Notes under the pieces: generated by a model
Databases searched by the model: none
Seen by the model: the letters and a program-made list of their open reading frames with translations, nothing else
Told to the model about the DNA's origin: nothing
Position numbers and translations under genes: made by a program
Source of the DNA: Flavihumibacter fluvii
GTDB lineage: Bacteria; Bacteroidota; Bacteroidia; Chitinophagales; Chitinophagaceae
Reading direction: 5' to 3'
Length of the DNA stretch: 64,000 nt
Assembly (NCBI RefSeq): GCF_018595675.2
Contig: NZ_CP092333.1
Coordinates: forward strand, 4,488,001-4,552,000
Shown here: positions 51,209 to 63,766 of the stretch, one piece after another
How the letters are laid out: each line of letters opens with the position of its first letter
Numbering within the stretch: position 1 is the first letter of the stretch

Positions 51209-53431
51209 ATGATTGATTATATAAGGGAATATAAAAAATACAGTAGCAGTTATTATGTATCTGAAGGCATTCGAACTACTGCTGGTGTTATGATTCCCTT
51301 ACTGGTAGCCAGTTACTTCGGTCAATTGCAAACCGGTGTTGCATTGGCTTTGGGGGCGATGTGTGTAGGCCTTACAGACAATACGGGTCCTATTCATCAT
51401 CGGATCAACGGAATGGTCGCAGCCATCCTGCTTATATTTTTTACCACATTACTAACGGGGTTCATTATCCGCTTTCCATGGATGTTGGCAATTTTTATTG
51501 CCGTCATGGGTTTTGCCTGTTCTTTTGTTGGTGTTTATGGTGTTAGGGCTAGCAATGTAGGAGGAGCAGGCGTGCTGATCATGGTCTTAAGTATCGATGA
51601 ACAGTATGACCCTGCACGGGTTATCCGTAATGCCTTGCTTGTTAGCAGCGGAGGTTTATTTTATCTTACGATAAGCCTATTGCTGTACCGCCTTCGACCA
51701 TATAAATTGATTCAGCAGGCACTGGGCGATGAATTACTGGCAACAGCCACTTACTTGCGCACCCGTGCTGCATTTTATCAATCCTCCGTAGATTATACAG
51801 GCACCTACCAGTTATTGTTGGAACAACAGGTGCAGGTGCACAATAAACAAAACCTGGCTCGTGAAATGCTGTTCAAAACCCGGGATATAGTGCGGGAGTC
51901 TACACATGTCAGCCGGATCATGATGATGATTTTCCTGGATAGTGTTGACCTTTTTGAAAGGATTATGACGTCTCAGCAGGACTACCGGAAATTGCACGAA
52001 CAGGCAGATGGCAGTAATTTATTGCCTGCCTTTGGTGCATTTATAAAAAGGCTGGCAGAGGAAGCGGAATCCATCGGACTTGCGCTTCAGGAAGGTAAAG
52101 TTTCAATTCCCAATCCCGTTTTGGCTAATGAACTGAAGTCATTGGAAGAACAGTTCATTAAGGTTCGGGCAGCAACTATGGATGACAGCAATATTGAAGG
52201 TTTTATAAGCATGCGCCATATCCTCGATAGCCTGAAGGACCTTTACCAGCGGATTGAAACACTGCACCGTTATACGAGCTTCGATAAGAAATTGGGAAAT
52301 GATTTGAATCCCCAGATCCAATACGACAAATTCGTTTCGCCCTCTGATTTCAATCTAAAACTGTTAACCAATAATATCAGTATTGATTCCAATATTTTCA
52401 GGCATTCCATCAGAGTTAGTGTTTCCCTCCTGGCTGGTTTTTTTATTTCCCGGATTTTTCCTTTCGGACATGGGTACTGGATTTTATTAACGATAGTGGT
52501 GATCCTTAAACCTGCCTACAGCCTTACCAAAACAAGGAATATTGAACGCTTGGTGGGTACATTTACCGGGGCAGTTATTGGTGGAATGATTTTGTGGGTC
52601 ATTACTGATAACCATGTTTTACTGGTCATTATGATTATAGGAATGGTGGTTGCTTACAGTATGATCCGGTTAAAATACCTGGTAAGTGTAATTGCCATGA
52701 CAGCCTATATATTGATCGCATTTCATTTCCTGAAACCGGGTGATTTTTCTGAAGTGCTGCGTGACAGGCTAATTGACACATTTGTGGGATCGGTCATCGC
52801 TTTTATTACCACAATTGCTATCCCGCCTAAATGGGAGCATGAGCAAATCCAGGAACTGATCAGGAATGCCATAAGGGCAAATGCCAAATATTTCTCCTTT
52901 ATCAGTAAGCCATTCCTGGGAGAACACTTAAGTAACCTCGATTATAAACTTCACCGTAAAGAGGCTTTTGTACAGCTGGCGAATTTGTCTGATGCATTTC
53001 AGCGAATGCTGAATGAACCCAAGCGCCAGCAGAAAAAAATTCAGATCATCCACCAAATGGTGGTCTCAAATCATATGCTGGCCTCGCATATTGCAACGCT
53101 TTCGGCATACCGGAAAATGGCCGAATTGTTTTCAATTCAGAAATTCAGGCCGATTGTAGATGCTTCATTAGGCCACCTGGAATCTGCATCAGATATCCTT
53201 TCAACTGAAATCCATCACCTGAAGTCCATCAATTCGGATGAAAATTTTGCTATTCGTGAAGAGCTAAAGCAATTGCTGCAAAAGCGATTACAGGAACTGG
53301 CCAAAGGCAACCTGGAAACGGCAACTCGCAAAGAGTTATCCGGGCTTAAAAGCCTGGTTGACCAGTTTGAATACATCAATAAAATAAGTACCGAACTTGA
53401 GAAGTTAAGCGGGAAATTGGTAGCTGCTTAA
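51209..53431 (+). CDS. FUSC family membrane protein (YccS/YhfK-like)
   Basis: A 740-residue inner-membrane protein with two hydrophobic blocks: about residues 25-160 and about 405-540, each of some five or six helices, with a long soluble middle and C-terminal domain. The start GIRTTAGVMIPLLVASYFG and the second block FRHSIRVSVSLLAGFF and GHGYWILLTIVVILKPAYSLTKTRNIERLVGTF are classic FUSC. Relatives include fusaric-acid and aromatic-acid efflux components. Substrate unknown. It follows the HD/PycTM gene by 60 nt on the same strand. Its stop overlaps the korA stop by 3 nt. Confidence 0.9.
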   Translation: MIDYIREYKKYSSSYYVSEGIRTTAGVMIPLLVASYFGQLQTGVALALGAMCVGLTDNTGPIHHRINGMVAAILLIFFTTLLTGFIIRFPWMLAIFIAVMGFACSFVGVYGVRASNVGGAGVLIMVLSIDEQYDPARVIRNALLVSSGGLFYLTISLLLYRLRPYKLIQQALGDELLATATYLRTRAAFYQSSVDYTGTYQLLLEQQVQVHNKQNLAREMLFKTRDIVRESTHVSRIMMMIFLDSVDLFERIMTSQQDYRKLHEQADGSNLLPAFGAFIKRLAEEAESIGLALQEGKVSIPNPVLANELKSLEEQFIKVRAATMDDSNIEGFISMRHILDSLKDLYQRIETLHRYTSFDKKLGNDLNPQIQYDKFVSPSDFNLKLLTNNISIDSNIFRHSIRVSVSLLAGFFISRIFPFGHGYWILLTIVVILKPAYSLTKTRNIERLVGTFTGAVIGGMILWVITDNHVLLVIMIIGMVVAYSMIRLKYLVSVIAMTAYILIAFHFLKPGDFSEVLRDRLIDTFVGSVIAFITTIAIPPKWEHEQIQELIRNAIRANAKYFSFISKPFLGEHLSNLDYKLHRKEAFVQLANLSDAFQRMLNEPKRQQKKIQIIHQMVVSNHMLASHIATLSAYRKMAELFSIQKFRPIVDASLGHLESASDILSTEIHHLKSINSDENFAIREELKQLLQKRLQELAKGNLETATRKELSGLKSLVDQFEYINKISTELEKLSGKLVAA

Positions 53432-55284
53432 TTCAACCCACCCAGCATTTCTTTAAGTTTTTGTATCAATTCAGTTTTCGTGATGGGAATGCCCATGATT
53501 TTATTATAGGCCCTAGCATCAACAAGGAATTGGTCTCGAATAATCTTTACCAGTTGTCCGTTGTTGATTTCAGGTATCAATACCTGGTCGAAATTTTTTA
53601 GGATGTCCCCGAGATTTCGGGGGAATGGCCGCATGTGCCGCAGGTGGGCATGGCTTATGGCATAACCTTGTTCCTGCATTTCGTGTACCGCACTTTTAAT
53701 AGCCCCATAGGTTGAACCCCATCCTAAAACCAGTATCTGTCCTTTTTCCGGGCCACTATCCAGTTTTTGTTCAGGAATATAGTTGGCAATTCTGTCTATC
53801 TTTTCCTGCCTGATCTTAACCATCAATTGGTGGTTATCGGGATCATAACTGATATTGCCTGTATTATTTTGTTTTTCTAATCCGCCTACCCGGTGTTCAA
53901 GACCCGGTGTGCCAGGAACGGCCCATGGGCGAACCAGTTTTTCATCACGCAGGTAAGGTTGGAATTTTTCTTCGCCAACGCCTAATTCCGTTTTGAAGGT
54001 GACCTGAATTGGGGGAAGGTCGACGCTGATTGGAAATTTCCAGGGCTCAGCACCATTGGCAATATATCCGTCACTCAGAAATATTACAGGGGTCATGTGT
54101 TGTACGGCGATTCTGACTGCCTCATAAATTGCATCAAAACAATCGCTCGGTGTTGATGCAGAAATAACAGGCATTGGACATTCACCGTTTCTACCATAAT
54201 AGGCTTGAAGGAGGTCGCTTTGTTCTGTTTTTGTTGGTAATCCGGTTGACGGCCCACCACGCTGGATATTAATGATCAGGAGGGGGATCTCCAACATTAC
54301 GGCCAGGCCCATGGCTTCTGTTTTCAGAGCCATTCCCGGTCCGGAAGTGGTAGTTACGCCAAGGCTTCCGCCATAAGCGGCACCGATTGCAGCAGAAATC
54401 CCAGCAATTTCATCTTCTGCCTGGAAGGTGCGGATACCAAAACTTTTATACTTACTTAACTCATGTAATATATCAGAGGCAGGTGTAATCGGGTAAGTTC
54501 CCAAAAAAATGGGCAACCCACTTTTTTGACTGGCAGCTATCAATCCGTAGGAAAGTGCCTGATTACCCATGATGTTGCGATATTGGCCAGGCTCCATTGT
54601 GGCCTTTTCAACCTTATAGCGCGTAGTGAAAGTTTCCGTGGTATCTCCGTAATTATAGCCGGCTTGAAGGGCTTTGATATTACTGTTTAGCAGTTCCGGT
54701 TTTTTCCCGAATTTATCAGTTAGGAATTTGATACTGCTATCCATGTCCCGGTTATACATCCAATACAGGAAGCCCAGCACAAACATATTCTTGGCCCTGT
54801 CTTTCTCCTTGATGCCCAGTGTGAAGTCTTTCAATGCTTCACGGGTCATTTTGGTAACATCCATTTTGATCAGCTCATAATTACCCAGGCTGTCGTTTTC
54901 AATAGGATTAACACCTTCCGGATAATTAGCGAGGCGGAGGTTTTTTGCGTCAAAACCATCAGTATTGGCTATGATTTTACCGCCTTTCTTCAAGCTCTTC
55001 AGGTTGGTCTTTAATGCAGCGGCATTCATCGCTACAAGGATATCGCACTCATCGCCAGGGGTAAATATCCGGTCACTCGAAAACCGTAGCTGATAACCAC
55101 TAACCCCAGGGATGGTGCCCTGCGGCGCCCGGATCTCTGCGGGGAAATCAGGGAAGGTTGCCAGATCGATGCCCATCATGGCAGTATTATTGGTGAATTG
55201 GGTGCCGGTCAATTGCATTCCATCGCCGCTATCGCCGGCAAATTTGATAACTACTTCTGGTAGGATTTCTTCTTTACGAATCAT
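53428..55284 (-). CDS. korA: 2-oxoacid:ferredoxin oxidoreductase, fused gamma-alpha subunit (KorA)
   Basis: A 618-residue subunit of 2-oxoglutarate:ferredoxin oxidoreductase or a close relative. The N-terminal gamma domain (about 8-195) has VVIKFAGDSGDGMQLTG; the alpha domain follows with GNQALSYGLIAA, YPITPASDILHELSKY, FQAEDEIAGISAAIGAAYGG and GPGMALKTEAMGLA. The beta subunit (TPP binding) is normally next to it but is not here. The ATG at 55284 follows a perfect -7 box by 4 nt. Cytoplasmic. Confidence 0.92.
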   Translation of the reverse strand: MIRKEEILPEVVIKFAGDSGDGMQLTGTQFTNNTAMMGIDLATFPDFPAEIRAPQGTIPGVSGYQLRFSSDRIFTPGDECDILVAMNAAALKTNLKSLKKGGKIIANTDGFDAKNLRLANYPEGVNPIENDSLGNYELIKMDVTKMTREALKDFTLGIKEKDRAKNMFVLGFLYWMYNRDMDSSIKFLTDKFGKKPELLNSNIKALQAGYNYGDTTETFTTRYKVEKATMEPGQYRNIMGNQALSYGLIAASQKSGLPIFLGTYPITPASDILHELSKYKSFGIRTFQAEDEIAGISAAIGAAYGGSLGVTTTSGPGMALKTEAMGLAVMLEIPLLIINIQRGGPSTGLPTKTEQSDLLQAYYGRNGECPMPVISASTPSDCFDAIYEAVRIAVQHMTPVIFLSDGYIANGAEPWKFPISVDLPPIQVTFKTELGVGEEKFQPYLRDEKLVRPWAVPGTPGLEHRVGGLEKQNNTGNISYDPDNHQLMVKIRQEKIDRIANYIPEQKLDSGPEKGQILVLGWGSTYGAIKSAVHEMQEQGYAISHAHLRHMRPFPRNLGDILKNFDQVLIPEINNGQLVKIIRDQFLVDARAYNKIMGIPITKTELIQKLKEMLGGLN

Positions 55285-55304: not shown

Positions 55305-55349
55305 GTGTCAGACATCTATAGGTGTCTGACACTTATAAAGTGTCAGACA
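55305..55349. repeat. Three-arm inverted repeat between gldA and korA
   Basis: A 10-nt unit GTGTCAGACA occurs three times in alternating orientation: 55305-55314 (+), 55323-55332 (as TGTCTGACAC) and 55340-55349 (+). Arms 2 and 3 extend to a perfect 12-bp stem with a 3-nt loop; arms 1 and 2 pair over 10 bp. The two hairpins are mutually exclusive. The gldA stop codon lies in the last arm. No T-run follows. Confidence 0.85.
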
Positions 55350-56263
55350 ATAAAATCTTTTCCAGTCAAGGTGCGAAATACATCCTCAAGGCTTTGTTCA
55401 CCGCTTTGCAGGGAAATAATGTTCAAATTCTCGCGCACGGCCAATTCCAGGAGCTGCTTTTTGGCTTCTGGTAGGTCGGTGGCGGTGATTTCCCATTCTT
55501 GTGCACTGATCCGATCAAGCCCTGTCAGTGACTTAATTGACCTTTCAATCCATTGAGCTTCAAGCGATTCCTTGAATTGTACCCTTATTACAGGTATGCT
55601 ATTTGCTGATTGTAATTCCGCCACAGTGCTATCAGCAATGAGTTTACCTTTATTGATGATAATTACCCTGTCGCAAATGGCTTCAACTTCCTGTAATATA
55701 TGCGAGGAAAAAAGAATCGTTTTATCCTTTCCTAATTGTTTGATTACCTCCCTTATTTCGATAATCTGGTTAGGATCCAGTCCGGTGGTTGGTTCATCAA
55801 GGATGAGTACCTCCGGATTATGAATCAGGGCTGCAGCCAACCCTACACGCTGCTTATAGCCTTTGGACAGCTGGCTTATTTTTTTATCACTTTCACGGGT
55901 AAGCCCAACCTGTTCAATCACATCATTCACCCGCTTTGAGGGGTCGACTATCTGGTGAATATCAGCCATAAAATGCAAGTACTCACGAACAAACATATCA
56001 AAGTAAAGCGGGTTTGATTCTGGCAGGTAGCCAATTTTCTTTTTGGTCTGCAAGGGGTTTTCCTGAACATCAATGCCCGATACTTTTGCTTTTCCTCCAT
56101 CGGGATGCAGATAGCCGGTAAGTATTTTCATTGTTGTTGATTTCCCTGCACCATTAGGTCCAAGAAAACCAACGATCTCACCTTTGCCTACTTCGAAGGA
56201 AATCTGGTCTACAGCTTTTTGCTGACCGTAGTTTTTCGTTATTGATTGAACTGAAATGGACAT
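55343..56263 (-). CDS. gldA: Gliding motility-associated ABC transporter ATPase GldA
   Basis: A 306-residue ABC ATPase. Walker A GPNGAGKSTTMKILTG at about 36-51, signature LSKGYKQRVGLAAAL, Walker B VLILDEPTTGLDP, H-loop SSHILQE. The N-terminal ISVQSITKNYGQQKAVDQIS and C-terminal EQSLEDVFRTLTGKDFIV match GldA, which with GldF and GldG forms a transporter linked to gliding. GldF and GldG are absent here. The last residues are coded by an inverted repeat arm. It starts 25 nt after the carbonic anhydrase stop, so it could be the last gene of the carbon operon. Confidence 0.88.
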   Translation of the reverse strand: MSISVQSITKNYGQQKAVDQISFEVGKGEIVGFLGPNGAGKSTTMKILTGYLHPDGGKAKVSGIDVQENPLQTKKKIGYLPESNPLYFDMFVREYLHFMADIHQIVDPSKRVNDVIEQVGLTRESDKKISQLSKGYKQRVGLAAALIHNPEVLILDEPTTGLDPNQIIEIREVIKQLGKDKTILFSSHILQEVEAICDRVIIINKGKLIADSTVAELQSANSIPVIRVQFKESLEAQWIERSIKSLTGLDRISAQEWEITATDLPEAKKQLLELAVRENLNIISLQSGEQSLEDVFRTLTGKDFIV

Positions 56264-56288: not shown

Positions 56289-56921
56289 TCATAAATCGTC
56301 ATATTCATAGAGCTCATCTAAATGTGAATTGGCTGGCATTTCAAGAACGGGTTTTATCAACCCGTCTTTTAACCCATATACCCAGCCATGGAGGTCGGGA
56401 CGTTGTTCTGAGCCCCATGCTTTTTGAATAATTGACGTCTTGGCAAGGTTGATGACCTGTTCCTGGACATTTAATTCTACCAGCCGGTTTGTTTTTTCTT
56501 CTTCATCTGTAATATTGTCAATTTCTTCTCGGTGAAACCGGTAAACATCCTTGATATTTCGTAGCCATTTGTTGATAATCCCGAAGTTATGTTTAGTCAT
56601 CGCGGCCTTAATCCCGCCGCAACCATAGTGACCGCAAACAATTACATGTTTAACTTTTAGATGTACCACGGCATATTCCAGGACAGTCAGCAGGTTTAGG
56701 TCGGTATGCACGACCATATTTGCGATGTTGCGGTGGACGAAAATTTCCCCTGGTTGCGTGCCTGTTATTTCATTAGCCGGCACCCTGCTATCACTGCACC
56801 CGATCCACAAGAACTCTGGGGTCTGCAGATGGGCCAACCGTTCAAAATAGTCCGGGTCTAAGGCAACTTGCCCTGCTGCCCAGGACTTGTTTTCGAAGAG
56901 TAGTTTTTCGTGTGCTTTCAT
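56289..56921 (-). CDS. can: Beta-carbonic anhydrase, copy next to dabB
   Basis: A 210-residue zinc enzyme interconverting CO2 and bicarbonate. Ligands C42, D44 and R46 (dyad) in GCSDSRVPANE, then H98 and C101 in CGHYGCGG. HRNIANMVVHTD is conserved. No signal peptide, so cytoplasmic. It follows dabB after a 104-nt gap and precedes gldA by 25 nt. It is closely related to the copy at 61460, which suggests duplication within the cluster. Confidence 0.95.
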   Translation of the reverse strand: MKAHEKLLFENKSWAAGQVALDPDYFERLAHLQTPEFLWIGCSDSRVPANEITGTQPGEIFVHRNIANMVVHTDLNLLTVLEYAVVHLKVKHVIVCGHYGCGGIKAAMTKHNFGIINKWLRNIKDVYRFHREEIDNITDEEEKTNRLVELNVQEQVINLAKTSIIQKAWGSEQRPDLHGWVYGLKDGLIKPVLEMPANSHLDELYEYDDL

Positions 56922-57025
56922 CCTGATGAGGCTTTATTAGGTGGAAATAGACCTTAACTAGAGTATTTATTTCACAGTGCGACACTTAAAACTATAGATT
57001 TCCAACCAGAATTTCAGGCAAGTTT

Positions 57026-58894
57026 TCAGGATGACCGATAAGCAATCGGGTGAAAATTCTTTTTATGCTGTCCCAGGAAAATCCGAGCATATAATCGCAA
57101 AATGGCCAATTCAATAAATATAAAACTTAATGAAGTTGTAATAATCAGGATAAACTGGTCTTTATAAATGTGGGTGAACAACAAATCAATTCCCAGGAAT
57201 GTAGGTGTGAAGGGAAAGCCAAGGAGTGCAAGGCAACATAAAAGGAAAATAAATGCGACTGTTGGTTTTTCATAACTATAGCCGTGGAACCGGTTTAATG
57301 CAATATCCTTGTCAATCCGTTTTATATATAGCAGGCAGAAGAAACCTATAATGGCGGCGACCAGTATACCACTAAGGTAGATAACCACTTTGTGCATTTC
57401 CATGAAGTCATTAAGGCCAACTGATAAGGTAATGAAACACTGCGCTGCAATCACCGAAAACCATGCTTTTATTGCGTTGCCACGTTCTGAAAATGCGGTT
57501 AATACCAACAAAAGGGCGGTCATTGAAAAAAAGATAGCCAATAAATAGTCGATATTGGTTGGGATTTTTTCTTCAATGTACAGGCAATAAAGCCCACCCA
57601 GGAAAAATGATGCCAGTGTAATTATTCCCACCTTTCCGGTAAAATATTTAAGTTGTTTACCCGCGAGTTTAAAAGGCATCCAAAGGTATTTGTATTGGAA
57701 AAGGTCGAGATTCCATTCTTTGATACTTATTACATAAATGGTATTTTTTAATTTTTGCCAGATCCCGGTTCCTGTCGTATGATCTTTTGGTGAAAAATTA
57801 AAAAACATATTATGGATCTGGTAGCTTAGTACGGAAGGCGATACCAATAACTGGTAGGTTCTTAATAAGGCGTTACCCGAAAAGTGAATAATGGCCAGGG
57901 TATGAAAGCCAAGCGCAATTTCAGCAAAAATCAGCCCGATTTGTGTTATAGAGGAATACGCGATCTGTGTCTTTACTGTTGACTGTACTTTAGCAATTGC
58001 TGCGGCGATGATACTGGTTGATAACCCGAGTAAGGTGATCAATATTTTTACTGAAGTGATATCCTGCCAGAAAGGATAGGTACGCAAGAGTAAGAATGCT
58101 CCAACATGAACAGACAATGATCCGTAGAAAACCGCACTGGAAGTGGTAGGCCCTTCCATTGCCCTTGGTAGCCATGATGAAAACGGCAGCATAGCTGATT
58201 TTGCCGCAGCTGCAATAAGGATCATTATAGCGGTAAAAATAAACATGGAATTGTGCTGGGTGAGGTGGCTGCTGACAAAATCGAAGTCATTCAATTTAAG
58301 AAAAGTGATGTTTTCATGAAAGAGGTGGTGGCACATCCACATGGCCAGCATCAGGCATACATCCCCCAACCGGTAAACCGATATCACCTTTAAGCCATTT
58401 TTGACGGGAAGGTACCTGTCACGGTAAAAAGCGATCAGCAAAAACGAACAAAGACCCAATACTTCCCAGCCAACAAAGAGGGTCTCAAAGTTGCCAGAAA
58501 AAATTATCAGGTTATAGGCGAGAAAAAATAAAATAAAGGTGGCGAAAAATCTTTTGTATCCGCTTTCCCGGTGCATATAGTATTTACTGAATATGGCCAC
58601 CAAAAGTGTGATAAAACTGCCGACAAATGAAAAGACGGCAGTTATCTGGTCAAAATAGAAGTCGATAAAAAACTCAAAACTTTCTGATTTGTACAATACG
58701 ATATGCTTGCTGTCGAGTATAGGATGGTTATTCATCAGCCAGTAAATGATAAATAAACTGCAACCGAAAACATGCAGCACTATTGTTGTAATGGTGATAC
58801 CAGAAATAATTTTTTCTTTATTACCCGGTACAAGCATGCAGGTAATAAAACCGATAAATGGCAACCATATAAACAACTGAAGTAACTGTGGCAT
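57026..58894 (-). CDS. dabB: Proton-conducting transporter subunit DabB (NuoL-like)
   Basis: A 622-residue polytopic membrane protein of the NuoL/MrpA/HyfB family. About 14 or more membrane helices. Conserved proton-channel residues appear: Glu in VGWEVLGLCSFLLIAF, Lys in AAKSAMLPFSSWLPRAMEGPTT and Lys in VQSTVKTQIAYSSITQ. A truncated C-terminus compared with NuoL fits the DabB subtype. Paired directly with DabA: it starts 22 nt after the dabA stop. In known systems DabB couples an ion gradient to the DabA CO2-hydrating activity. Confidence 0.93.
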   Translation of the reverse strand: MPQLLQLFIWLPFIGFITCMLVPGNKEKIISGITITTIVLHVFGCSLFIIYWLMNNHPILDSKHIVLYKSESFEFFIDFYFDQITAVFSFVGSFITLLVAIFSKYYMHRESGYKRFFATFILFFLAYNLIIFSGNFETLFVGWEVLGLCSFLLIAFYRDRYLPVKNGLKVISVYRLGDVCLMLAMWMCHHLFHENITFLKLNDFDFVSSHLTQHNSMFIFTAIMILIAAAAKSAMLPFSSWLPRAMEGPTTSSAVFYGSLSVHVGAFLLLRTYPFWQDITSVKILITLLGLSTSIIAAAIAKVQSTVKTQIAYSSITQIGLIFAEIALGFHTLAIIHFSGNALLRTYQLLVSPSVLSYQIHNMFFNFSPKDHTTGTGIWQKLKNTIYVISIKEWNLDLFQYKYLWMPFKLAGKQLKYFTGKVGIITLASFFLGGLYCLYIEEKIPTNIDYLLAIFFSMTALLLVLTAFSERGNAIKAWFSVIAAQCFITLSVGLNDFMEMHKVVIYLSGILVAAIIGFFCLLYIKRIDKDIALNRFHGYSYEKPTVAFIFLLCCLALLGFPFTPTFLGIDLLFTHIYKDQFILIITTSLSFIFIELAILRLYARIFLGQHKKNFHPIAYRSS

Positions 58895-58916
58895 GTATGT
58901 TGGTTGTGGTTTCTTT

Positions 58917-61451
58917 TTAGTTACGTTCTAATATAAATACCGGCAGGTTCTCTTTGGTTGCATCTGTAATATGATTGGTATCCATTTTTTTTGAATCTTC
59001 AACCAGGCTTTCAGTATCGTTAATAGTTTTGACCTCACGAATTATGGGATCGTAAGCTGAAAACCGGCCATCCCTGTAATAATGTATATCATTTGTTTCA
59101 GGATGGATCGCCGCGATATGGACCCATTCATTTTTGTACCATTCAAATATTTCAGGGGCAGATTGAATGGCTTTCAAAACAATATCCGGAAAGTGTTCCA
59201 CCACTACCAATAACCGGACAGGGTCATGCACTTCTATCATCTGGACTGGCAGCCCCGTGCGCAGATCTCCATCACTGCTGTTGGCAACGCCAATCAAACC
59301 CATGACATTGTGGGGTAGTTTAGTACCTGCTCCCAATTTATAATTGTCTACCCTCGAAAAATAGTATTCCAGATTTATGCCCCCGCATACCAATCCAATA
59401 GGACGCATAACACCCATCAGCAGTTTGCCATCAGGATCTGTTCGGTAATCATATGAATTGAGGAAAGCCCTACGGTCAAGGAATAGCCCCCTTGTCAGGC
59501 TCCTGTTTCCAACAATACATAATGAATTAGTTCCGTGACCCAGCTCGGGACGGGGTTCGAACATAGATACACTTCTTTTCAGTATATCCCTTCGAACTTT
59601 TGTCCGGCTATTTTTTGTGTTTATCGAAGCAAACCTGCGCGAACGCTCTTTAGCATTCCCATCTAACGCCTTTTCGAATTTTGACAGGTTTATCTTGTGA
59701 AGCGAAATGTTTTGGGCATTCAACAAATGTTCGTCATAAAATTCTATCTGGTCGGCAGCGGTATCGTGCATCCCGCCTAAAAACTGCGTGGATGCGGGGA
59801 TGATTATTCCCTTCGAGTTCAGCAGCTGCCGGACTTCAGGGTGGTTAGCCATTTGTGCAAATACCCTTGCATTTACCGATCCGGGTCTTCCACTGCAGGC
59901 ACCACAATCATGCGCGCTATGGTGTGGATTATTTGCACTGCTGCTTCCATGTGCTATGGTGTAAACTATCGGCGCAAAATTATCTACCAATCCGATACCT
60001 CTTATCAGCCCTTCTACCCTTGCTGCCATTTCTTCAATGGTAAATCCAATCTGTAAGCCGTTTTCAATATCATCCGGGGATTTGTTTTCTACCGTTAAGC
60101 GTGCGTTTTTTTGCATATGTGTATATGCATTAGAAATAGCCGGACTCATTTTCGGATTAAAAATATGTTGCACTAAGCGCCATCCGGCAACAAATCCGAG
60201 TGAAACGGAACTTATTGCACCAGTTAACAGAGTTTGGGTCCTGTTGGTATAGAGTAATTCGTGTTTCCTTTTTTGATTTTCATGTAATTCCTTGACGAGG
60301 TATTTTGGGTTGACCGGTGCCGGACAAAGTTTCTCATAAAACTTTGCATTTTCTGGTTGGAAAAAGAACTCAACACCAAAAAAACCAGGCGAGCCAAGGG
60401 TTTCACAATCAGGGTCTATATTTTCAATATGCCTCCTGAACGAGCACTCTCTTTCATCGATGCAAAATATGGCCTGAAAACTTTTTTTGGCGGGAAGTGC
60501 GATGGGTCTTGTCTTCTGGTGCATTAGTCCAGCCAGCACATCATCATAATAGCTCCATTCAAAAGCGTTATGCCAAAGCCTTATTACTTCCTGTAATTCA
60601 TTGCCCGGCAGGTCATCAAATAAATTCGTTGGTTTTATCTCTGCAGCCATTGCAAGTGGTTGCCACCGTTCATTTAATACATGATCGATAGCATCTATCT
60701 CAAGCAATAGTTCAAAATAGATCATTTCTTTCAGCGAGATATTTTTTCTGTCCAATAGGGTATGCGGAGCATCTTCTACAGCGGATACCATCCCACTCCA
60801 GCCTGGGTGGCTGAACTGCTGGTCAAAAATATATTGTTCAAATAGGTTTTCATCCCCAACCAGGATATACAACAGGTCTTCTAAATCATTCCGGCCGTTC
60901 ATTAGCAGGTCTTTTGTCCTGCCAGATTTAAAAAAGCTGATCATGCTGGTTTTTTCCAGTTCCTTGATGGAAGCCAGGAAGCCCTTTTTATTTACTGGAA
61001 ATGGCCAAATTGAAATGCCCTGGTCGAGGTAACTACATAAAATCCGGAATAGTATAGGCTGAACGAGATTGTCAATATCAATTCCATATAACCCTTTCCA
61101 ATGAGCCCTTAATCTTCCAACCAGAGGCTCATTGTGGGTATCATATTTTTTTGTTAGCAACCGCCCCTGCCACTCCGTGATGTTTTCGTGCCCATATTTA
61201 TCAGTAATGAGTTTATTTAATACTGCAGTTTTAATACGGCCATTACGATGTAATTTTCTGAAGTCTTCCAGTTCCAGCGTAACCTGGTAGCCAAATATTT
61301 TACCGGCTTTAAAAATTGCGTCATAAAACTTCATATGCTGGAAAGCATGCAAAGTGTTATGGTGTATAAAGTCTTTTATGGGTGTCTGCGATGGAAGGTA
61401 ATGTTTCAATTCATGCAAAACATGGGATTCGTTATAAACTGTAGACTTCAT
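58917..61451 (-). CDS. dabA: DabA inorganic-carbon uptake protein (DUF2309, UPF0753)
   Basis: An 844-residue DabA. The predicted zinc site is intact: C330 and D332 in IFCIDERECSFRRH, then H501 in YTIAHGSSS and C516 in AHDCGACSGRPGS, with the same spacing (2 and 15 residues) as described for Halothiobacillus DabA. The start VLHELKHYLPSQTPIKDFIHHN is family-typical. No long hydrophobic helices, so it is a peripheral protein held by DabB. Together they convert CO2 to bicarbonate in the cytoplasm in one direction. It begins 8 nt after the carbonic anhydrase stop. Confidence 0.94.
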   Translation of the reverse strand: MKSTVYNESHVLHELKHYLPSQTPIKDFIHHNTLHAFQHMKFYDAIFKAGKIFGYQVTLELEDFRKLHRNGRIKTAVLNKLITDKYGHENITEWQGRLLTKKYDTHNEPLVGRLRAHWKGLYGIDIDNLVQPILFRILCSYLDQGISIWPFPVNKKGFLASIKELEKTSMISFFKSGRTKDLLMNGRNDLEDLLYILVGDENLFEQYIFDQQFSHPGWSGMVSAVEDAPHTLLDRKNISLKEMIYFELLLEIDAIDHVLNERWQPLAMAAEIKPTNLFDDLPGNELQEVIRLWHNAFEWSYYDDVLAGLMHQKTRPIALPAKKSFQAIFCIDERECSFRRHIENIDPDCETLGSPGFFGVEFFFQPENAKFYEKLCPAPVNPKYLVKELHENQKRKHELLYTNRTQTLLTGAISSVSLGFVAGWRLVQHIFNPKMSPAISNAYTHMQKNARLTVENKSPDDIENGLQIGFTIEEMAARVEGLIRGIGLVDNFAPIVYTIAHGSSSANNPHHSAHDCGACSGRPGSVNARVFAQMANHPEVRQLLNSKGIIIPASTQFLGGMHDTAADQIEFYDEHLLNAQNISLHKINLSKFEKALDGNAKERSRRFASINTKNSRTKVRRDILKRSVSMFEPRPELGHGTNSLCIVGNRSLTRGLFLDRRAFLNSYDYRTDPDGKLLMGVMRPIGLVCGGINLEYYFSRVDNYKLGAGTKLPHNVMGLIGVANSSDGDLRTGLPVQMIEVHDPVRLLVVVEHFPDIVLKAIQSAPEIFEWYKNEWVHIAAIHPETNDIHYYRDGRFSAYDPIIREVKTINDTESLVEDSKKMDTNHITDATKENLPVFILERN

Positions 61452-61459
61452 AATAATTA

Positions 61460-62134
61460 TTAAACGGGCACCTTGCTGCGGCGTACTGCTTTTTTCGGTT
61501 TTTCTAATTCGAACCGATAGATATTATCAATATCCTCCTTGCTGTCATGAATAATACTCAGGTCTTTTACCAATCCGTCACTTAGTCCATATACCCAGCC
61601 ATGCAGGTGTAATTCCCTGGTTGCCCAGGCCTTCTGGACAATAGTAGTTTTTGCCAGGTTCCTCACTTGTTCAATAACGTTCAGTTCAGTAAGGCGATTG
61701 GCTCTCTGTTCCTCATTTTCAATGGCATCGAGTTCCTTCTGGTTCTGGAAATAGACATCCTTGATATTACGCAGCCAGTTGTCTACAAATCCATGGTAGG
61801 AATTACTCATGGATGCTTTTACACCTCCGCAGCCATAATGGCCGCAAACAATGATATGCTTAACGCCCAGGTATACAACTGCATATTCCAGAACGCTCAG
61901 CAGGTTAGTATCCGTGTGTACCACCAGGTTTGCAATATTGCGGTGAACAAATATTTCACCGCTTTCAGTATTGGTAATTTCATTTGCAGGTACCCTGCTG
62001 TCACTGCATCCAATCCACAGGTAGTCGGGCTTTTGGCCTTTAGACAGATTTTTGAAGTAATTAGGATCAAAATGGAGTTTTGTTTCTGCGTAGAGTTGGT
62101 TGCCCTTAATTAATTTTTGGTATGATTTGTCCAT
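61460..62134 (-). CDS. can: Beta-carbonic anhydrase, copy between sulP and dabA
   Basis: A 224-residue beta-carbonic anhydrase. Ligands C43 with the D45-R47 dyad in GCSDSRVPANE, and H99, C102 in CGHYGCGGVK. HRNIANLVVHTD is present. A basic C-terminal tail (KPKKAVRRSKVPV) is not in the other copy. Spacing of 12 nt to sulP and 8 nt to dabA indicates one transcript. It could equilibrate CO2 and bicarbonate or feed DabA; in a trapping system an unregulated anhydrase in the same compartment would leak, so the partition is a puzzle. Confidence 0.95.
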   Translation of the reverse strand: MDKSYQKLIKGNQLYAETKLHFDPNYFKNLSKGQKPDYLWIGCSDSRVPANEITNTESGEIFVHRNIANLVVHTDTNLLSVLEYAVVYLGVKHIIVCGHYGCGGVKASMSNSYHGFVDNWLRNIKDVYFQNQKELDAIENEEQRANRLTELNVIEQVRNLAKTTIVQKAWATRELHLHGWVYGLSDGLVKDLSIIHDSKEDIDNIYRFELEKPKKAVRRSKVPV

Positions 62135-62146
62135 ATAATTTCTTTT

Positions 62147-63766
62147 TTAGTGGATGGATTGTACACGAGACAGATTTTCAATCTGGTATTTATCATGAAA
62201 TCCTTCCAGGTTACATTCAATGTTTTTGAGAGGTACTTTTATATCCCTGAATTCCTTGATCAGTTCCAATACATCAAAATCAATGTATTTGGTATTGGAA
62301 GCATCAATAATCACTTTCGAGTTTTCCGGAATATGGTCTAATGTTTCCCTAAGGGCAGCCTTATTTAAAAATGACACTTCTTCTGCCAGCCGAATTTGAA
62401 TGAGGTCACCATTCCTATAGGTCGCTTTATGAAAGAAGTAGGAGTTTTTGAGGTTACCATGTAAAATGGCAAAGGATGCTGCAAGGATCCCTGCAATGAC
62501 ACCAATAAGTAACCCTTCCCCCTTAAACGGCTTGTATAAGCCGAAAAGATCAATGCCAATAATGACGGATACTGTGACCATAAATGGAACAAACTGGTAC
62601 TTCCCATTATTATACATCTGTTTAAATACTGAGATTTTGCACAGTTTATAACCAGTTAACAGGAGGATCGCTGCCAGTGCAGATAATGGAATCAGGTTTA
62701 ACAGTTTGGGAATGGCAATTACTGTGACCAGCAAAAGCATCCCATGAACAATAGTAGAGACCTTTGATTTGGCGCCTGCCTGTACGTTTGCGCTGCTTCG
62801 CACAATTACACTTGTAATGGGCAATCCACCAATTAATCCGGATATCGTGTTTCCAATCCCCTGGGCGACCAGTTCCTTATTGGTATTGGTTACATTTCTA
62901 TCAGGATCAATATTATCTACAGCTTCAATACTTAATAATGTTTCAAGTGATGCAATAATGGCTATCATGAATCCTGTTATGATCACCTTGCTGTTTAAGA
63001 AACCGGAGAAGTCGGGTGTAACAAAGAAAGTAAAAAACTCTGCAGCACTGTTGGCGGATTTGATCTGCACCAGGTGTTCTGTAGAAATAGTCAATGCGCT
63101 ATCTGTGGCTTTGAATAGTTCATTCAGCAAAATAGAAACAATTACAGCAACAAGTGCTCCGGGAACAAATTTCATCCTGCGTTTAATAAATGGCTTTTCC
63201 CACACAAGCATGATTACAATAGATATCATGCAAATCATAAACACCCCGATATCGATATGCTGCAGGGGTTGTAGTAATTCATGCCAGTCCTCATTCCCGA
63301 AAGGAATCAATTCGGTCAGGTTTCCTTTTTCATCCTTGTCGTAGCCGGCTGCATGTGGAATTTGTTTAGCGATGATAAGGATACCGATACTGGTCAACAT
63401 ACCTTTTATAACACTGGATGGGAAGTAATTGGCTATGCCACCCATACGGGCAAATCCCATGATCATTTGCAAGATCCCTGCAATCAATACAGCACAGAGA
63501 AAAAGATTGAATGCCCCGATATTGGTAATAGCTGCTAAGACCAATGCAGCTAATCCTGCTGCCGGTCCGCTTACACTTAATTTTGAACCACTAAAAATAC
63601 CTACTACCACCCCGCCGATAATACCGGAAATCAGGCCACTGAAAAAGGGAGCTCCTGATGCCAATGAAATACCTAAACAAAGCGGAAGGGCAACCAGGAA
63701 TACCACTATTGCGGATGGGATATCTGAAGACAGATTACCCGTAAGGTTGCTGGGACGTCGAACCAT
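62147..63766 (-). CDS. SulP family anion transporter with STAS domain
   Basis: A 539-residue transporter. About ten to twelve membrane helices (residues 15-420) including SIPSAIVVFLVALPLCLGISLASGAPF-type start, split here as DIPSAIVVFLVALPLCLGI, the FSGSKLSVSGPAAGLAA motif and the GLIGGLPITSVIVRSSANVQAGAKSK motif. A C-terminal STAS domain (about 440-530) has VIIDASNTKYIDFDVLELI. The bicarbonate-transporting BicA type is in this family; sulfate is possible. Its first-gene position ahead of carbonic anhydrase and DabAB favours bicarbonate. First gene of the module. Confidence 0.9.
   Translation of the reverse strand: MVRRPSNLTGNLSSDIPSAIVVFLVALPLCLGISLASGAPFFSGLISGIIGGVVVGIFSGSKLSVSGPAAGLAALVLAAITNIGAFNLFLCAVLIAGILQMIMGFARMGGIANYFPSSVIKGMLTSIGILIIAKQIPHAAGYDKDEKGNLTELIPFGNEDWHELLQPLQHIDIGVFMICMISIVIMLVWEKPFIKRRMKFVPGALVAVIVSILLNELFKATDSALTISTEHLVQIKSANSAAEFFTFFVTPDFSGFLNSKVIITGFMIAIIASLETLLSIEAVDNIDPDRNVTNTNKELVAQGIGNTISGLIGGLPITSVIVRSSANVQAGAKSKVSTIVHGMLLLVTVIAIPKLLNLIPLSALAAILLLTGYKLCKISVFKQMYNNGKYQFVPFMVTVSVIIGIDLFGLYKPFKGEGLLIGVIAGILAASFAILHGNLKNSYFFHKATYRNGDLIQIRLAEEVSFLNKAALRETLDHIPENSKVIIDASNTKYIDFDVLELIKEFRDIKVPLKNIECNLEGFHDKYQIENLSRVQSIH

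Follow-up and report, generated by a model that had tools for sequence, protein, structure and literature searches.

We analysed a 64,000-nt stretch of the Flavihumibacter fluvii genome (hereafter the window; contig NZ_CP092333.1, 4,488,001 to 4,552,000; positions below are counted within it). Genes for a SulP-type anion transporter (sulP), a beta-carbonic anhydrase (CA1), the two subunits of a DAB pump (dabA, dabB) and a second carbonic anhydrase (CA2) follow one another there, all on the minus strand, from 63766 to 56289. The original prediction of five same-direction genes for inorganic carbon supply was confirmed by the open reading frames and by Pfam, and the arrangement was judged to be far beyond chance. 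The first four genes are closely packed, as had been claimed, with intergenic gaps of 12 nt (sulP-CA1), 8 nt (CA1-dabA) and 22 nt (dabA-dabB). The gap between dabB and CA2 is 104 nt, and that between CA2 and the next gene, gldA, is 25 nt. The features are collected in Table 1; the labels type I, type II and type III DAB were coined in the present analysis, and L numbers are our own labels for loci.

Table 1. Features of the DAB locus and its flank, with positions counted within the window
Feature	Position	Strand	Description
sulP	62147..63766	-	539-aa anion transporter of the SulP/SLC26 type, probably for bicarbonate; PF00916, E 2.4e-64
CA1	61460..62134	-	224-aa beta-carbonic anhydrase within the operon; PF00484, E 1.6e-57; C43xDSR, H99xxC
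dabA	58917..61451	-	predicted vectorial carbonic-anhydrase subunit (type II), 844 aa
DabA zinc site C330, D332, R334, H501, C516	59904..60464	-	conserved in 95/95 type II and 24/24 other DabA
DabA membrane finger, residues 404-436	60144..60242	-	V416 at the place of the essential Glu444 of DAB2
dabB	57026..58894	-	NuoL-like membrane subunit (type II), 622 aa
DabB type II signature E144, Y257, H263, N341, R345	57860..58465	-	from alignment
DabB residues 531-609, like NuoL transmembrane helices 12-13	57068..57304	-	from hhalign; D570 aligned with NuoL D400
CA2	56289..56921	-	second beta-carbonic anhydrase (210 aa), a core gene of the genus that is paired with gldA
gldA	55343..56263	-	CA2 neighbour, flank marker; TIGR03522, 434.5 bits vs. 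cut-off 402.6
2-oxoacid:acceptor oxidoreductase alpha subunit	53428..55284	-	flank marker; TIGR03710, 667.2 bits vs. cut-off 482.75

DabA covered positions 2-747 of the 747 of the Pfam profile PF10070 (E-value 1.6e-214; 715 bits against a cut-off of 25), DabB matched Proton_antipo_M (PF00361, E-value 7.4e-37), and SulP scored 217.9 bits with PF00916 (cut-off 23.2). CA2 matched Pro_CA with an E-value of 7.3e-56, against the 1.6e-57 of CA1. CxDSR and HxxC, which make up the C-D-R-H-C site of Can-type beta-carbonic anhydrases, are present in both, and CA1 scored 251.2 bits with NCBIfam NF007756, whose cut-off is 251. The zinc site foreseen in DabA (C330, D332, H501, C516) is present together with R334. 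By sequence, the pair has the marks of a DAB/DAC pump, namely a PF10070 DabA with a Cys2His site and an Asp-Arg dyad, and an adjoining NuoL-like subunit. At 39.2-42.7% GC, the four genes lie slightly below the window as a whole (43.1%). Our scan for promoters and terminators found fewer sites than in shuffled sequences (15 vs. 23.7; 3 vs. 8.5).

The limits of the operon were judged from 14 other genomes of the same genus. CA2 was found in all of them (75-89% identity), always with gldA downstream and with a SulP gene, here called SulP', directly upstream. The distances in these SulP'-CA2-gldA sets are 23 to ~170 nt, except for ~700 nt in L191. This arrangement is independent of DabA, as it occurs in the four congeners with DabA and in the ten without; the DabA of those four is the short type III in each case, and dabB precedes it. 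CA2 had been counted as a fifth gene of the module. Its pairing with gldA and SulP' in 14/14 congeners and its spacing (closer to gldA than to dabB) speak against this, and we rejected its membership as unlikely. Thus, the operon probably consists of four genes, sulP-CA1-dabA-dabB, and CA2 is probably part of an older CA-gldA block.

Longer stretches were compared for 12 of the 14 congeners, two genomes with short contigs being excluded. In all 12, gldA, CA2, SulP' and the major facilitator superfamily (MFS) gene that flanks sulP in the window stand together. The oxidoreductase gene beyond gldA is present in ten; in L217 and L227 none was found within the ~1.4 kb read. In the window genome, dabB-dabA-CA1-sulP occupies the position of SulP', between the same neighbours. 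The interval from sulP to the MFS gene is 774 nt in the window, with sequence similarity throughout in L216 and L221, the two that were aligned by eye. The SulP of the window is only 43.7-47.9% identical to SulP'. In the SulP tree, it groups with the SulPs of other DAB operons (support 0.91-0.92 for the window with L100 and L115, within a clade of 1.0), and the SulP' of the 14 congeners form a separate clade (0.83); deep nodes of this tree are poorly supported, down to 0.0. SulP' was not found in the window genome, because the only other SulP there is distant (~30%). Since the four-gene set sits at the SulP' site between the same neighbours, the simplest reading is that an incoming operon replaced the resident SulP' in place. 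At nine other loci (L089, L099, L103, L111, L114, L115, L118, L119, L127), CA2 is divergent beside a sulP-DAB operon, and gldA is in view with it in six of them.

To place the pump among known DABs, we compared loci with flanks (24 DabA and 23 DabB of types I and III; 15 loci of type II, among them the window) and added the best 80 loci from a scan of GTDB contigs, which brought type II to 95 DabA. Two sequences were left out of the counts: the 'DabB' of L142, which is a NuoL-like frame on the opposite strand, and the DabA fragment of L085. No DabB was found for L068. The L085 fragment is C-terminal (a frame of 293 aa), and a BLAST search with the DabB of the window found no dabB near it; L085 is perhaps a decayed DAB. 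Types I and III have the order dabB-dabA and a DabB of 447-568 aa; type II has the order dabA-dabB and a DabB of 619-642 aa. In the DabA tree (midpoint root), 95/95 type II proteins fall in one clade with a support of 0.90. A short type III DabA of 733-774 aa, missing ~60 profile positions near the N-terminus and paired with a DabB of 447-457 aa, was seen in L047, L048, L051, L053, L054 and L081, that is, in four congeners and two other genomes.

The C, D, R, H and C of the zinc site are invariant in all types (Table 1). The membrane finger is different. The Glu at the position of DabA2 Glu444, which was fixed in the alignment with the help of an invariant Gly three residues later, occurs in 21/24 type I and III DabA and in 0/95 type II DabA. 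The type II residues there are Q (37), L (24), I (16), F (10) and others, and an acid elsewhere within the 30-residue finger stretch was found in 15/95.

The DAB2 structure has led to a model in which the finger Glu444 and a His/Lys chain in DabB couple proton flow to CO2 hydration (PMC13144422). In DAB2, Ala changes at S256, H260, K310, S316, H339, H343 and K347 impaired function, E444A and E444Q abolished activity, and I151E cut growth yield by half; Glu444 has been described as standing in for NuoL K399/D400 (PMC13144422). After L142 was dropped, 93 type II DabB remained, and 90 could be scored at most sites, as three are incomplete before them. DabB2 H260 is replaced by Tyr (Y257) in 90/90, H343 by Asn (N341) in 87/90 (His in L094, L102 and L130) and K347 by Arg (R345) in 90/90. 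H263 is found in 89/90, and I151 is replaced by Glu (E144), the gating Glu of complex I, in 93/93. The residues K308 and H337 (DabB2 K310 and H339) are retained in 90/90. In the window DabB, the ion-pair set of complex I (E144/R175/D178/K232) is present and S/T253 is kept. At the H260/H343/K347 positions, types I and III have His, His and Lys in 23/23, and one outside example each of a DAB1-type, a DAB2-type (Thiodictyon), a haloarchaeal and an MpsAB pump was canonical throughout, including the finger Glu.

Thus, five positions probed in DAB2 (H260, H343, K347, Glu444 and I151) are altered jointly in one clade, and four of them are (near-)invariant in the new state. A degenerate pump was rejected, because changed residues would not be nearly invariant in it. 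From the alignments, type II is a separate DAB subtype, in which the zinc site is intact and the proton path would be built differently from that of the studied pumps.

The C-terminal part of DabB also differs from type I. Residues 531-609 matched NuoL transmembrane helices (TM) 12-13 with an hhalign score of 47.0, while 20 column permutations gave at most 24.6 and the reversed sequence 19.4; this segment was not found in type I DabB by hhalign. Its D570 aligns with D400 of the NuoL of the same genome (L170), and the register was checked. Residues 379-423 scored 22.6 against the NuoL C-terminal arm, no better than the best permutation (24.6), so only the fold alignment speaks for this resemblance. 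PDB 9rd0 was not among the 50 matches listed for either model. With the profile of complex I NuoL (TIGR01974), the window DabB scored 200.8 bits against a cut-off of 407.5.

We further explored how widespread this system is, using relatives, genomes of the phylum and the best 80 DabA matches of the GTDB scan; many of these 80 loci end at contig edges. DabA is present in 10/59 relatives and 30/395 genomes of the phylum, the own genome being counted in both. The gene order is common: sulP-CA-dabA-dabB was found in ~27 of the best 80 public loci (25 by a distance rule, and L092 and L095 by eye), and its uniqueness was rejected. Other orders were CA-sulP-dabA-dabB (6) and dabA-dabB-sulP (7), and SulP is present in 63 of the 80. 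For 23 loci, the record titles name Chitinophagaceae, Chitinophagales, Chitinophaga, Ferruginibacter or Flaviaesturariibacter. Most loci that have the CA2-gldA pair come from these groups. Of the 27 carbonic anhydrases between sulP and dabA, eight are at least 55% identical to those of the window and 19 at most 35%, so different carbonic anhydrase lineages have filled this slot.

Carriage of type II on plasmids was not found: a DabA match occurs in 123 plasmid records, every one below 60% identity to the window DabA, and the 40 plasmid DabAs listed have 25-33%. On a complete chromosome recorded as Candidatus Saccharibacteria (L134, CP025011.1, 6977-11386), type II dabA and dabB were found with identities of 58% and 40%, which is unexpected for a genome as small as 1.45 Mb. 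In three Nitrotoga and Nitrosomonas records (L147, L154, L158), type II dabA-dabB is followed by sulP and has the same signature, except that L147 has Glu at position 570. Nitrotoga and Nitrosomonas are autotrophic nitrifiers. Two contigs of metagenome-assembled genomes assigned to Methylotenera/Methylophilaceae (L102, L130) have a Bacteroidota-like sulP-CA-dabA-dabB with His at 341, by transfer or mis-binning.

The source genome is a single contig of 5.0 Mb, 99.99% complete, with one DabA match, four beta-carbonic anhydrases and two SulP matches. The original prediction had seen no CO2-fixation genes in view. This held genome-wide for the RuBisCO large subunit, which had no match although the same search was positive in 5/14 control genomes, and autotrophy was rejected. 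The ATP-citrate lyase profile PF16114 had no match, but the control was equally silent, which gives this result no weight either way. Phosphoenolpyruvate (PEP) carboxylase and one biotin carboxylase domain are present as bicarbonate users. The suggested anaplerotic or biosynthetic use is compatible with them, and the function itself is predicted. A comparable anaplerotic reading was given for a carbonic anhydrase and a bicarbonate transporter in Schleiferia thermophila, also of the Bacteroidetes (PMC4148732). Two matches to TIGR01974 above the cut-off lie elsewhere in the genome. A second NuoL-family cluster was noted at G000:C1:4410640-4415428, where the frame 4412570-4414123 is broken by two TAA codons.

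Taken together, we suggest, with a probability of roughly 60%, that a horizontally acquired sulP-CA1-dabA-dabB operon feeds inorganic carbon to the carboxylases of a gliding heterotroph, and that its pump belongs to a separate DAB subtype with complex-I-like coupling. Under CO2 scarcity, SulP, carbonic anhydrase and DAB would then likely supply CO2 and bicarbonate to PEP carboxylase and to biotin-dependent and biosynthetic carboxylations. The four-gene operon would have replaced the resident SulP' ahead of CA2-gldA. SulP may import bicarbonate, DabA on DabB may hydrate CO2 in one direction at a DAB2-like zinc site (the site being indicated by conservation), and CA1 and CA2 may equilibrate intracellular CO2 and bicarbonate. 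In type II, Tyr257, Asn341 and Arg345 would stand in for the DAB2 route through DabB His260, His343 and Lys347, and the finger Glu444 has no counterpart. The periplasmic half-channel of type II would be completed by the Asp of DabB itself (D570) and not by a finger Glu of DabA; therefore, coupling in type II may be more complex-I-like. The ion, its direction and the coupling are what we infer here. A further step, that type II forms its own class of energy-coupled carbonic anhydrases with a rebuilt ion path and complex-I-like or other-ion coupling, adapted to the carbonic anhydrase and SulP of its operon, is put forward tentatively, at somewhat less than even odds.

Several observations weigh against this reading. 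The distance between SulP' and the MFS gene is ~0.7-0.8 kb, as in the window, in 5/12 congeners and ~4-4.6 kb in the other 7/12. The fold alignment of DabB with NuoL ends at about residue 450, and D570 is placed by the sequence match, so its position in the membrane is unseen. Types I and III themselves vary at the ion-pair sites, with Gln at the K235 position in 20/23. In the literature searched, no assay of a type II DAB was found. Three type I DabA of Bacteroidota (L062, L065, L066) have Ser or Gly for the finger Glu beside a canonical DabB, so this Glu is not universal even there. The last point would suit an ordinary DAB, in which Tyr, Asn and Arg are conservative changes that still hold a water wire and the proton mechanism is exactly that of DAB2; the retained zinc site, K308, H337, K232/R175/D178 and S/T253 agree with it as well. 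We consider this explanation unlikely, as the five changes fall together in one clade, Gln, the commonest type II state at the finger position, is the very change (E444Q) that abolished DAB2 activity (PMC13144422), and the C-terminal half of DabB differs.

The identity of SulP is another weak point. It scored 129.1 bits with the BicA equivalog NF050096 against a cut-off of 880, its substrate is not assigned by its sequence, and it could carry sulfate or another anion; the carbon system would then be CA1-dabA-dabB only. We hold this to be improbable. SulP accompanies most of the best 80 type II loci, it replaced another CA-linked SulP in place, and a second, distant SulP is at hand in the genome for other duties. 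The nearest solved chain by sequence is 6ki1_A (E-value 2.6e-26), deposited as 'Low affinity sulfate transporter', which we take to be cyanobacterial BicA.

Fan et al. argued that a bicarbonate transporter should work in vain with a soluble carbonic anhydrase at its side, and they found slightly reduced growth when the two were co-expressed (PMC8552792). By the same argument, a cytosolic carbonic anhydrase next to a bicarbonate-forming pump should undo the work of the pump. Because of this, the frequent carbonic anhydrase in type II operons is a real puzzle, which carbon supply leaves unexplained. It could point to pH or anion homeostasis, in which DAB and carbonic anhydrase make bicarbonate and a proton, SulP (which might run in either direction) exports bicarbonate and the cytoplasm is acidified or buffered; SulP, a carbonic anhydrase without an evident signal peptide and the pump do share an operon, but this is very unlikely, as the slot earlier held sulP'-CA2, a bicarbonate-type set by its genes, and the known role of MpsAB lies in growth at low CO2 (PMC6689103).

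A large clade with the zinc site, without the DAB2 chain and with a complex-I-like Asp in DabB offers a natural test of the DAB2 model. The operon combines a pump with a bicarbonate-type transporter and a carbonic anhydrase despite the published reasoning against a transporter with a carbonic anhydrase (PMC8552792). The exchange at the sulP' site suggests that, for selection, either set can stand in for the other.

DabAB had been described as best known in autotrophs and some pathogens. MpsAB/DAB homologues in heterotrophs and Bacteroidetes have already been published (PMC6689103), and the tally of DAC, SulP and carbonic anhydrase genes in PMC10880623 was made chiefly in autotrophs. In the titles and abstracts listed by our searches on DabA/DabB in Bacteroidetes or heterotrophs, their subgroups and their neighbours, neither the type II signature nor the SulP' swap was described; both may nevertheless have been named before.

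The nearest studied system is DAB2 of Halothiobacillus neapolitanus (DabA2/DabB2, PDB 9rd0). The two share the zinc ligands (C351/H524/C539 in DabA2), the Asp-Arg dyad (D353-R355) and a NuoL core with counterparts of DabB2 R182/D185/K235. The window pump differs in its A-B order, the missing finger Glu444, the H260/H343/K347 to Y/N/R and I151 to Glu changes, and a DabB of 622 aa instead of 551 aa with an end like NuoL TM12-13. In the two DAB2/MpsAB-type examples read (L213, L215), dabB precedes dabA, unlike in the window.

DAB1 is functional, as it complements CA-free E. coli (PMC7714395). Our example on plasmid 1 of Nitrobacter hamburgensis was taken as DAB1 because RuBisCO/carboxysome genes adjoin it. 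It shares a PF10070-type DabA with the zinc site and a NuoL-like partner. However, it has the canonical finger Glu and H/H/K, a DabA of 1037 aa (844 aa, Y/N/R and no RuBisCO in the window), an extra hypothetical gene and an adjoining PII gene, and no SulP annotated in the stretch read.

MpsAB of Staphylococcus, which in S. aureus has been proposed to be a Na/HCO3 cotransporter (PMC6689103), is similar in supplying dissolved inorganic carbon to a heterotroph and in its zinc site; the S. pettenkoferi plasmid example differs in its B-A order, a DabB of 492 aa and canonical residues. SulP-CA bicarbonate sets (BicA) also have a SulP adjoining a beta-carbonic anhydrase; in the window, the two share one operon with a DAB pump. 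With NuoL of respiratory complex I, the window DabB shares TM1-11, the gate Glu and the TM12 Asp, whereas its half-channel H/H/K is changed, its C-terminal half is rearranged and its TIGR01974 score stays below the cut-off.

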